Assembly (NCBI GenBank): GCA_018061035.1
Contig: JAGOUX010000005.1
Coordinates: 1-53,136 of the forward strand
DNA: 53,136 bases
Direction of reading: 5' to 3'
DNA from: Minisyncoccota bacterium
GTDB lineage: Bacteria > Patescibacteriota > Minisyncoccia > Phycocordibacterales > UBA9973
The notes under the pieces are model-generated. The model had not been told where the DNA came from and ran no database searches. It saw nothing but the letters and a program-made list of their open reading frames with translations. Of the stretch, positions 9,060 through 40,716 are shown in pieces. The translations under genes and the position numbers were made by a program. The number at the start of each line of letters is the position of its first letter. The stretch's first letter is position 1.

Positions 9060-10769
9060 CTACATCTTCTCCGGAGCTTCTACGCCCAAGAGATTAAGAC
9101 CCTTCTTCATAACGAAAGAAAATGCATATGTAAGAGCAACTTTATATGGAGAAGTGCGATCATCCTTTTTTACAATTACTGAGTTGCCATAAAAGCTATT
9201 GAAGGCACGAGCAAGCTCAATCAGATATGTGGCAATATGGTGCGGTTCGGATTCCTCTGCAGACCGAACGACTACCTCAGAGAATCGATAGAGCAGTCTC
9301 TCAACTTCTGTTACTTCTTCAGGAACTGTATCAAAATCAGGCAAGACATTTTCAGTTTTAGACTTTTCAGTTATGGAGTGAGCGCGTGCATATGAGTATT
9401 GTAGGTATGGGCCAGAATCCCCTTCGGTAGATATAGATTCTTCTACATCATATACAATGTCGCTTCCTGCTTTTGAGCGAAGAATAGAGTATTTGATTGC
9501 TGCCACTCCTACAACTTCTGCGATTTTGTTCTTTGCATCATTATCAAGCTCTCTGTCTTTGAGCTTCTCTCCGATAACCTCTATTGTGTCTCGGATCAAT
9601 GACTCGCCTGTAACAATATTTCCCTTTCGTGAACCCATCTTACCTGTTGCGAGACGCATCATACCGTGAGTGATATGTCTCATCTTTGATTCATATTCTG
9701 GATGTATCAGTGAAATCGCCTTTGCAACCACTCGCATATAGTCAGTCTGCTCGTTGGCGGTGATCACTATTGATAAGTCCATGTTTGGCATTATCTTGAA
9801 TTTCTCTTCGGTTAAGCCAAGTTCTTTAGTCTCATAGGTTGGTAATCCTTGTGAAGTGATGAACACTCGAGTGTGAAGCTTGGGATCATGAGCTTCAGCT
9901 TTGAAAACAACTGCTCCATCTGACTCTTCAAAGACCTTCCCTAAATTCTTTCGAACTAATTCCTCTCCATATGGAGCAACCTTGCTCTCGAGGAAGTAGT
10001 AATCGAATTGTGTACCGAGAATTTTGTATAAATCCTCAAATGCTTCCATTGTAACTTTGAAACCCCAGTCATAAACCTGATTAACCTCTTCATCTTCTCG
10101 GGAATAGATCTTTTTGTTAAGCGCGTCAATTTCCTTTTTCGCTTCCTCATCTTCTTCGTATGCCTTACTACCTAGTACATATGAATCACCGATGTACTGA
10201 GCAATCACAGCAAGAGGAGCATTCATATCTTCAGGCATTCCTTTTTTCTGCATACCATAGAAAGCTCTTGCTACATGAAGCCCCACATCTCCTTGATAGT
10301 TAGCTCGTGAAACTTCGGCTCCGGAGTGTTCAAATATCCTCGAGATGGATTCTCCGATGGCATTTGTCATTAGGTGTCCAATATGAAATGGCTTGAAAGG
10401 ATTAGGATCAGTGTATTCGATCATCACCTTCTTCCCAGCAAGCATTGTATTGGCGCCAACTTCTTTTGTATTTAAAATTTCCTCCACACTTCGGCTAAAA
10501 AATTCTCTTGAGAGATAAAAATTAATGAATCCTGCTCCTGCAACCTCTGTCTTGGAAATTTCTTTCGGCAAATGTTTGATCATCTCCCCTGCAATCTTAT
10601 CCGCAAGCTCTCTCGGATTCATCTTGAGCTTCTTGGCGCAAGCCATTGCGACATTTGTAGAATAATCACCATTCTTAAAATCTTCAGGGTGCTCAACAAC
10701 AAAATCAGCTTGCTCTATATCAAGATTCTTAAGTGCCTGATTAATTAAATTTTTGATTATATCCTGCAT
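9060..10769 (-). CDS. argS: Arginyl-tRNA synthetase
   Basis: A 569-aa class Ic synthetase. It has the N-terminal additional domain (1-90), a catalytic core with H129-I-G-H132 in a P-F-H-I-G-H context, the ArgRS variant of the KMSKS loop (G-S-R-K-G-N), and a C-terminal DALR anticodon domain ending in the family's typical V-E-A-P-E-K-M. The open frame extends upstream to 10880, but that stretch overlaps dut and encodes an unrelated hydrophobic peptide; the ATG at 10769 gives the normal ArgRS start. A structured leader like that of hup lies between dut and this start. Confidence 0.96.
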   Translation of the reverse strand: MQDIIKNLINQALKNLDIEQADFVVEHPEDFKNGDYSTNVAMACAKKLKMNPRELADKIAGEMIKHLPKEISKTEVAGAGFINFYLSREFFSRSVEEILNTKEVGANTMLAGKKVMIEYTDPNPFKPFHIGHLMTNAIGESISRIFEHSGAEVSRANYQGDVGLHVARAFYGMQKKGMPEDMNAPLAVIAQYIGDSYVLGSKAYEEDEEAKKEIDALNKKIYSREDEEVNQVYDWGFKVTMEAFEDLYKILGTQFDYYFLESKVAPYGEELVRKNLGKVFEESDGAVVFKAEAHDPKLHTRVFITSQGLPTYETKELGLTEEKFKIMPNMDLSIVITANEQTDYMRVVAKAISLIHPEYESKMRHITHGMMRLATGKMGSRKGNIVTGESLIRDTIEVIGEKLKDRELDNDAKNKIAEVVGVAAIKYSILRSKAGSDIVYDVEESISTEGDSGPYLQYSYARAHSITEKSKTENVLPDFDTVPEEVTEVERLLYRFSEVVVRSAEESEPHHIATYLIELARAFNSFYGNSVIVKKDDRTSPYKVALTYAFSFVMKKGLNLLGVEAPEKM

Positions 10770-10812
10770 TTGATTTTGCAAATCACACCGCGTAAGTCCT
10801 ATAGGCGCGGTG
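10770..10812 (-). promoter_or_regulatory. Two-hairpin leader element before argS (same family as hup leader)
   Basis: Directly after the dut stop the minus strand forms CACCGCG/CGCGGTG, with an inner CC-TATA-GG and a 3'-side bulge ACTTA. A small hairpin TGATTT-gc-AAAATCA then ends one base before the ATG. The hup leader has the same layout, with compensated stem changes. Confidence 0.6.
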
Positions 10813-11235
10813 CTAACCAGTCGTACCAAAGCCACCACGACTATTACTATCCATAGTATCAGTTTCTTCCCACTCGGCAATGTCTACCTTTATAAATGCT
10901 CCTTGGCCGAGACGCTCTCCTTTCTCAACTTTAACCTCCATGTCAGATATATTGTATACCTGAAGTAGTATCTCGTCTGTCTCCCCGCAATAATCTGTAT
11001 CTATAAATCCTGTGCTTACGAGCAATCCTTTCTTCTTGAGGGTGCTAGATCGGTCCTTGATCTCGAGCATGTAGCCCTTTGGCGTAGCCACTATCACATT
11101 GGTGGGCAAACGTTCTAATGTCTTAGGCGGAATAACAACATCAATTCGAGAGTATAGATCAAAAGCCACAGCTCCAGGAGTCTGGTATATAGGCATCGGC
11201 AAACTTTTATCTATTCTTTTAATTTTTACTTTCAT
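10813..11235 (-). CDS. dut: dUTP diphosphatase (trimeric dUTPase)
   Basis: A 140-aa dUTPase that hydrolyses dUTP to dUMP, limiting uracil in DNA and feeding thymidylate synthesis. All five conserved motifs are present in order: A-F-D-L-Y-S, D-R-S-S, a G-F-I-D-T-D-Y-C-G-E segment, G-E-R-L-G-Q, and the C-terminal glycine-rich S-R-G-G-F-G-T-T-G arm. It lies 1 nt downstream of a Nudix gene and close to tmk, forming a nucleotide-pool group. Confidence 0.95.
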   Translation of the reverse strand: MKVKIKRIDKSLPMPIYQTPGAVAFDLYSRIDVVIPPKTLERLPTNVIVATPKGYMLEIKDRSSTLKKKGLLVSTGFIDTDYCGETDEILLQVYNISDMEVKVEKGERLGQGAFIKVDIAEWEETDTMDSNSRGGFGTTG

Positions 11236-40288: not shown

Positions 40289-40390
40289 AATAGGTAGTAG
40301 TTATATACGTAAATAGGTCGAAAGAATTATAAACCAATAACCTATACGTCGCGCCGAAAGGAATTACGCGACGTGATTTAGCAAAATCAT
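40289..40390 (+). promoter_or_regulatory. Structured leader of hup
   Basis: Near the 5' end, AATAGGT occurs twice and can pair with one downstream ACCTAT, giving two alternative hairpins. The 3' part (40346-40389) forms ACGTCGCG/CGCGACGT with an inner CC-GAAA-GG and a 3' bulge AATTA, followed by TGATTT-agc-AAAATCA one base before the ATG. This 3' part matches the argS leader. Confidence 0.6.
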
Positions 40391-40663
40391 ATGAACAAAC
40401 AAGCATTAGCTGAATGGGTACACGGAAAGCTCGGTGGTACTAAGGTACAGGCTGAGGAAATCGTAGACGGATTGTTTGATGCTATCTCTACAACCTTGAA
40501 AAAGGGAGGAGAAGTTTCAATCGCTGGCTTCGGTATCTTTTCTGTAAAAGGACGCGCTGCACGAATGGCCCGCAATCCAAAGACTGGAGAGCAGGTTAAG
40601 GTTGCTGCAAAGAAAGTGCCAAAATTCCGACCTGCAAAAGGTTTGAAGGACTTGGTTGCTTAA
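40391..40663 (+). CDS. hup: DNA-binding protein HU
   Basis: A 90-aa nucleoid-associated protein. It has the helical dimer core (1-45), the G-F-G-I-F-S-V-K signature, and the DNA-binding beta-arm with R-N-P-K-T-G-E. It bends DNA and compacts the chromosome. It is a single-gene transcript between its own promoter and a strong terminator, with a long structured leader that suggests post-transcriptional control. Confidence 0.97.
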   Translation: MNKQALAEWVHGKLGGTKVQAEEIVDGLFDAISTTLKKGGEVSIAGFGIFSVKGRAARMARNPKTGEQVKVAAKKVPKFRPAKGLKDLVA

Positions 40664-40686: not shown

Positions 40687-40714
40687 AAAAAAACACCCTC
40701 TCGGGTGTTTTTTT
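40687..40714. terminator. Bidirectional terminator between hup and yifB
   Basis: AAAAAAACACCC and GGGTGTTTTTTT around a TCTC loop. It serves hup on the plus strand and yifB on the minus strand, which converge here. Confidence 0.9.
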
Positions 40715-40716
40715 GT

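Follow-up and report, generated by a model that had tools for sequence, protein, structure and literature searches.

Structured 5′ leaders, such as ribosomal-protein leaders and RNA thermometers, have a conserved RNA structure that is able to mask the initiation region. The Byp elements of yeast mitochondria are short mobile hairpins within genes and are associated with translational bypass. Among palindromic repeats, the GTAG- and CGTC-tagged REP sequences consist of an unpaired tag and one stem-loop, and the CGTC repeats have no dedicated transposase; the unidirectional REPs are found close to the 3′ end of the ORF upstream and at a variable distance from the one downstream (PMC3733652). Rickettsia palindromic elements (RPE) are presented, in the passages of PMC10969869 citing Ogata 2000 and 2002, as small palindromic elements of ∼100–150 bp lying in-frame, and in one reading frame, within conserved housekeeping genes.

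The element described here was found in a stretch of 53,136 nucleotides of Minisyncoccota DNA, the whole of which is called the window. Like RPE, it is palindromic and occurs in-frame, and in the same frame, in unrelated ORFs (recA, folA, ksgA, udg, and msrA), and this in-frame behaviour is that described for RPE in the relevant passages of PMC10969869 and PMC3733652. It is set apart from the RPE description, as far as those passages of PMC10969869 give it, by a length of 43–47 nt, by its two hairpins, by the docking of most copies before start codons and not inside ORFs, and by a host from another phylum. The resemblance to REPs lies in being a short palindrome of the same size class, plausibly transcribed and sometimes intragenic, and that to CGTC REPs in lacking a dedicated transposase. 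In contrast to REPs, it has no unpaired GTAG or CGTC tag, its CGTC-like 5′ letters being paired in hairpin 1, where they covary and vary; it lies at a fixed distance from the downstream start and at widely varying distances from the upstream stop, which is the opposite pattern; and it is not associated with RAYT/Y1 as GTAG REPs are, there being carriers that lack a Y1 match. With structured 5′ leaders it shares a conserved RNA structure that could mask the initiation region, but it is mobile and patchy, is not conserved at orthologous genes and has no Rfam match. Unlike with Byp elements, the frame is open through the element in the coding copies followed up, and bypass is not needed. Docking at start codons is a feature absent from the known REP and RPE repeats, and literature searches found no start-docked palindrome in Parcubacteria.

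Results

The hup and argS leaders carry the same two-hairpin element

The original prediction of a two-hairpin element common to the hup and argS leaders was borne out at both places. The window belongs to a genome of 606 kb in 16 contigs. Three covariance models were used, R1 built from the hup and argS copies, R2 from five sequences and R3 from 36 sequences. The features of the two loci are as follows.

40346–40389, plus strand: double-hairpin element, hup copy, 44 nt; seed copy, 68.4 bits with R1 and 57.8 bits with R3
40346–40374, plus strand: hairpin 1 of the hup copy, an 8-bp stem with inner pairs CC/GG, loop GAAA and 3′ bulge AATTA; from the ViennaRNA fold and helix 1 covariation
40374–40389, plus strand: hairpin 2 of the hup copy, TGATTT-AGCA-AAATCA; from the fold and helix 2 covariation
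40391–40663, plus strand: hup, HU DNA-binding protein (PF00216, E 2.4e-30)
10771–10813, minus strand: double-hairpin element, argS copy, 43 nt; seed copy, 64.7 bits with R1 and 60.9 bits with R3
10771–10785, minus strand: hairpin 2 of the argS copy, TGATTT-GCA-AAATCA; from the second-hairpin pattern and the fold
9060–10769, minus strand: argS, arginyl-tRNA synthetase (PF00750, PF03485, PF05746)

The hup copy reads ACGTCGCG-CC-GAAA-GG-AATTA-CGCGACGT, then hairpin 2, one T and the ATG at 40391. The argS copy, on the minus strand, reads GCACCGCG-CC-TATA-GG-ACTTA-CGCGGTGT, then hairpin 2, one A and the ATG at 10769, and it begins with the G of the TAG that stops the upstream ORF. The start codon thus lies 1 nt after the element at both genes. 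Taken by itself, the pattern of the second hairpin has two occurrences in the window, where 0.07 would be expected. ViennaRNA folded both copies as exactly hairpin 1 and hairpin 2, with energies of −15.3 kcal/mol (hup) and −14.1 kcal/mol (argS), and gave −1.8 kcal/mol for hairpin 2 alone. The A-run at −8 to −5 of hup falls largely within the 3′ arm of its hairpin 2. Downstream of hup, a terminator-like hairpin (cacccTCTCgggtg, then a T-run) was seen by eye at 40690–40716 of the window.

The element is present in many copies and is distributed patchily

The search of the genome with R1, the model seeded with the two copies as had been proposed, returned five further copies, all independent of the seed; they precede a TraG/VirD4-like ATPase gene, mraZ, dnaK, a basic ORF of 21 codons and a T4SS pilin gene, each in the orientation of the gene and 0–3 nt ahead of its start codon. 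The later models added two copies, one nested and located ahead of tgt and the other degenerate, at C15:114451, bringing the genome to about 9–10 copies, and the covariance models found more than 100 copies in the genus. R2 gave matches in 37 of the 80 genus genomes, the weakest of them at chance level, with a maximum of 15 copies in one genome. Of the 397 genomes of the order, 62, belonging to 32 of 179 genera, carried the element according to R3, a patchy distribution, and R3 also found it in three genomes elsewhere in the phylum. No Rfam family matched the element at the gathering score, and two pattern scans of viral contigs did not find it. A scan of public genomes for exact 18-mers returned mostly chance matches and one true relative, at dnaK of Gw_Eff_bin_121. 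The dnaK leader of G077, a member of the same genus, is identical to that of a Candidatus Paceibacterota bacterium (L021), which places the host among the candidate-phyla bacteria of Parcubacteria type.

The element docks at start codons

The predicted placement next to start codons was found repeatedly, 0–3 nt from the starts of unrelated genes, and all start-linked copies are in sense orientation to the gene. The gap between element and start was 0 nt in 16, 1 nt in 50, 2 nt in four and 3 nt in nine of the ∼111 copies in the genus, and in all the fetched loci together it was 0–1 nt in 90 of 124 start-linked copies. Distances from the element to the stop codon upstream are spread widely (0 to ∼250 nt). 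For the 76 copies with both neighbours known, 55 were at 0–1 nt when 18 were expected from random placement within 13 nt, and 200,000 simulations of random placement gave a maximum of 34. Random insertion followed by survival does not account for the scarcity of the presumably harmless insertions further upstream, and this scarcity points to either targeted insertion or selection for the docked state.

The genes downstream of the element encode ribosomal proteins S5, S11, S12, S19, L2, L7/L12, L11, L20, and L23 and SecE; inspection of translated starts added nusA, tsf, ftsZ, ftsW, secF, atpD, aspS, pnp and the L9 gene. Several genes recurred, namely rpsS in four genomes, rplK in three, secE in three and dnaK in five, and argS carries the element in one further genome (G072). 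An ORF of 21–24 codons (MGKGNNAYRKDVKKPKKAKKK), possibly encoding a small basic protein, has the element ahead of it in three genomes (L116 at G000:C10:14442, L160, and L169). Other short palindromic repeats (cccgctaaggcggg, gcctacgctgaaaggctacggcgagc, ggcattaggccctaggc and others) were seen just upstream of starts in the hup and dnaK leaders of element-free relatives (L053, L056, L060, L073, L086, and L099).

The start context of the docked copies was compared with that of 55 element-free leaders of the genus, all from hup and dnaK. A Shine-Dalgarno motif at the usual distance was present in none of these native leaders and in none of the 78 element leaders. The native leaders share a run of A from −8 to −4 together with A at −2 and T at −1. 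In the element leaders, A occupies −8 to −5 and −2, supplied by the element through its 3′ end, AAAATCA, and a gap of 1 nt therefore reinstates the native start context in register. Because this A-run lies within the 3′ arm of hairpin 2, the closed hairpin would hide it. An anti-Shine-Dalgarno search did not find the 3′ end of 16S in the window-genome assembly. Two other candidate signals were rejected: the GGA in the loop as a Shine-Dalgarno motif, which is too far from the start, and a start codon inside hairpin 2, which is in-frame for some lengths only and is followed by a stop in several copies (GTG ATT TAG in hup).

Empty sites, in-frame copies, and nesting indicate a mobile element

The element is missing from all 29 related hup leaders. 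Many of them read ...ggtcgaaagaattataaaaataac...ATG; this upstream text recurs in the window genome, where the element precedes the ATG. A conserved hup leader was thereby ruled out, and the element is not an ancestral hup leader. At dnaK, for which 30 loci were fetched and all except one read, the element is present in the window genome and two others only. Empty sites were also found in relatives at ftsZ, nusA, rplT, tsf, a transketolase gene and the atpD leader. For example, the occupied ftsZ site reads TTAAAAA[element]TATG and the empty one GTAAAAATTATG. In comparison with such empty sites, the insertion is clean and lies between the leader and the ATG. Copy number also changes between close relatives, as G091 has six copies and none occur in G089 and G090, the genomes most closely related to it in the dnaK tree.

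Besides recA, folA, ksgA, udg, and msrA, an RsuA-like gene has a copy in its coding sequence by inspection. The coding-sequence copies translate as [SG]RAxxDxARHDFAKS or ARHDSAES and the frame is open throughout, which ruled out translational bypass. In MsrA the copy is a clean insert against solved MsrA homologues, and the recA fragment matches RecA N-terminal of its insert. Furthermore, in five loci (L154, L211, L216, L225, and L226) the place of the apical loop in hairpin 1 of a larger copy is taken by a complete small one. The clean insertion, the in-frame coding copies and the nesting together indicate a mobile palindromic element. In several of the nested copies (these five and L161), the inner loop is AAAGGAG or AGGAG, which is Shine-Dalgarno-like and lies ∼8 nt before an ATG. 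Other copies (L125 1501–1543, L152 501–543, L165 501–543, L131, and L133) are embedded in an intergenic palindrome of greater length (gattttt[element]aaaaatcctgaagttctcgg...), which seems to represent a further repeat family in these genomes.

Neither a transposase nor any other mobiliser of the element was identified. Y1/RAYT-like transposase genes (L256–L263) are numerous and diverged in the genus, occurring in 55 of 80 genomes with up to 13 per genome, and their presence does not track the element, for which reason they were rejected as the current driver of mobilisation. Y1 matches were absent from the window genome and several other carriers, the carriers without one including G000, G077, G032, G071, G095, and G099, and Y1 is thus not shown to be the mobiliser; Y1/RAYT mobilisation may have been used in the past.

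These results are probably best explained by a mobile element of ∼45 nt carrying a portable, and possibly switchable, translation-start leader. A purely selfish palindromic repeat of the REP/RPE kind, in which the hairpins serve only its own movement and docking results from preferred integration or from survivorship and plays no part in translation, seems rather doubtful. The in-frame coding insertions, the nesting and the patchy gain or loss agree with it, its stems would be kept for mobility, and no regulator was found, but the 0–1-nt gap is far beyond chance and the match to the initiation register at gap 1 is left out of account. It would also have to accommodate insertions beside ribosomal protein genes, which should carry a cost unless they are compatible with initiation.

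The stems covary and a conserved regulon is unlikely

The element has the consensus G-N-R-U-C-G-C-G-C-(UUUAAUGGACGAUU or CGAAAGGACUUA)-G-C-G-C-G-A-Y-R-UGAUUUCGCAAAAUCA, in which a GC-rich stem of 7–8 bp and a loop or bulge GAC..UUR make up hairpin 1, and hairpin 2 is UGAUUU..AAAUCA. An alignment of 100 distinct sequences has 94% of its cells paired and two-sided changes in 13 of 14 pairs (shuffle mean 4.5; 0/500 shuffles reach 13), and pairing was destroyed when the partner was slid. When the sequences were aligned by MAFFT, without fitting to the structure, 11 of 14 pairs still showed two-sided changes (shuffle mean 5.3; 0/500). A lesser measure in this alignment, the number of pair types, was not above the shuffles. 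The covariation score also exceeded all 500 shuffles. Hairpin 2 has the covariants UGAUUC..GAAUCA, CGAUUU..AAAUCG, UGGUUU..AAACCA and UGAAU..AUUCA. Copies at the same gene in different genomes, for example at rpsS and the 21-codon gene, show compensated differences, with some pairs out of register, and do not imply common descent of these copies. Compensatory changes, first noticed in the outer stem between hup and argS, thus occur in both hairpins. As for the parts thought to be conserved, the second hairpin is largely so in sequence at nearly all sites, and the conserved core is the bulge of A-C-U-U-A/G type and not the GG, the loop and bulge varying more than the two copies had shown.

The alignments show a conserved structure with covariation, as in families of cis-regulatory RNA leaders. 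Because the stems may be kept for mobility alone, this covariation is no proof of a role in mRNA. The covariation, the sense orientation, the adjacency to starts and the recurrence at rpsS, rplK, secE, and dnaK would suit a true regulon, in which a conserved cis-regulatory RNA answers to one regulator, either a protein or a ligand. Such a regulon is improbable given the patchiness of the element, which is missing from the related hup leaders and most dnaK leaders, has copies inside coding sequences, falls to zero copies in close relatives of carriers and matches no Rfam family. The common regulator first proposed for hup and argS was accordingly not upheld, since leaders shared as copies of a mobile element, cleanly inserted, nested, in-frame and varying from 0 to 6 between close relatives, imply no conserved regulon with one regulator. 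Conservation in orthologous hup leaders, which had been expected of a functional motif there, was not seen, yet many other copies exist, including that at argS of G072. A DNA operator or promoter with the inverted repeats as protein-binding sites, for which hairpin 2 is a near-perfect dyad largely conserved in sequence at nearly all sites, is very unlikely, because hairpin 1 changes in sequence with pairing kept, the spacer of hairpin 2 varies by 1 nt and copies occur mid-operon and in coding sequence.

Discussion

The reading of the element as a mobile, portable translation-start leader can be put as a series of steps. The element has inserted many times, in sense to the gene and mostly 0–1 nt before the start, and sometimes in-frame in genes or in another copy; we assume that a trans-acting activity moves it. 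A copy at gap 1 would be tolerated or favoured as its own 3′ end restores the A-run register, and the element may so act as a portable leader. In this model, the weak hairpin 2 (∼−1.8 kcal/mol) would mask the initiation site when folded and expose it when opened, and a docked copy may tune initiation through it. On the sequence evidence, a regulatory role for the docked copies is plausible. A stronger version is put forward tentatively, in which a horizontally spreading RNA-structured element with start-codon-targeted insertion carries its own non-Shine-Dalgarno context within a weak masking hairpin and places housekeeping genes under a shared translational switch, forming a mobile translational regulon.

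The translation signals of ultra-small bacteria are poorly understood, and in such bacteria the element docks on starts to almost the exact nucleotide, next to genes for ribosomal proteins, chaperones and secretion. It accounts for the odd in-frame peptides ARHDFAKS and ARHDSAES in Parcubacteria enzymes, and the A-run at −8 to −4 offers a testable model of non-Shine-Dalgarno initiation in Parcubacteria. If the docked copies control initiation, the element would, through its mobility, distribute a switch for translation.
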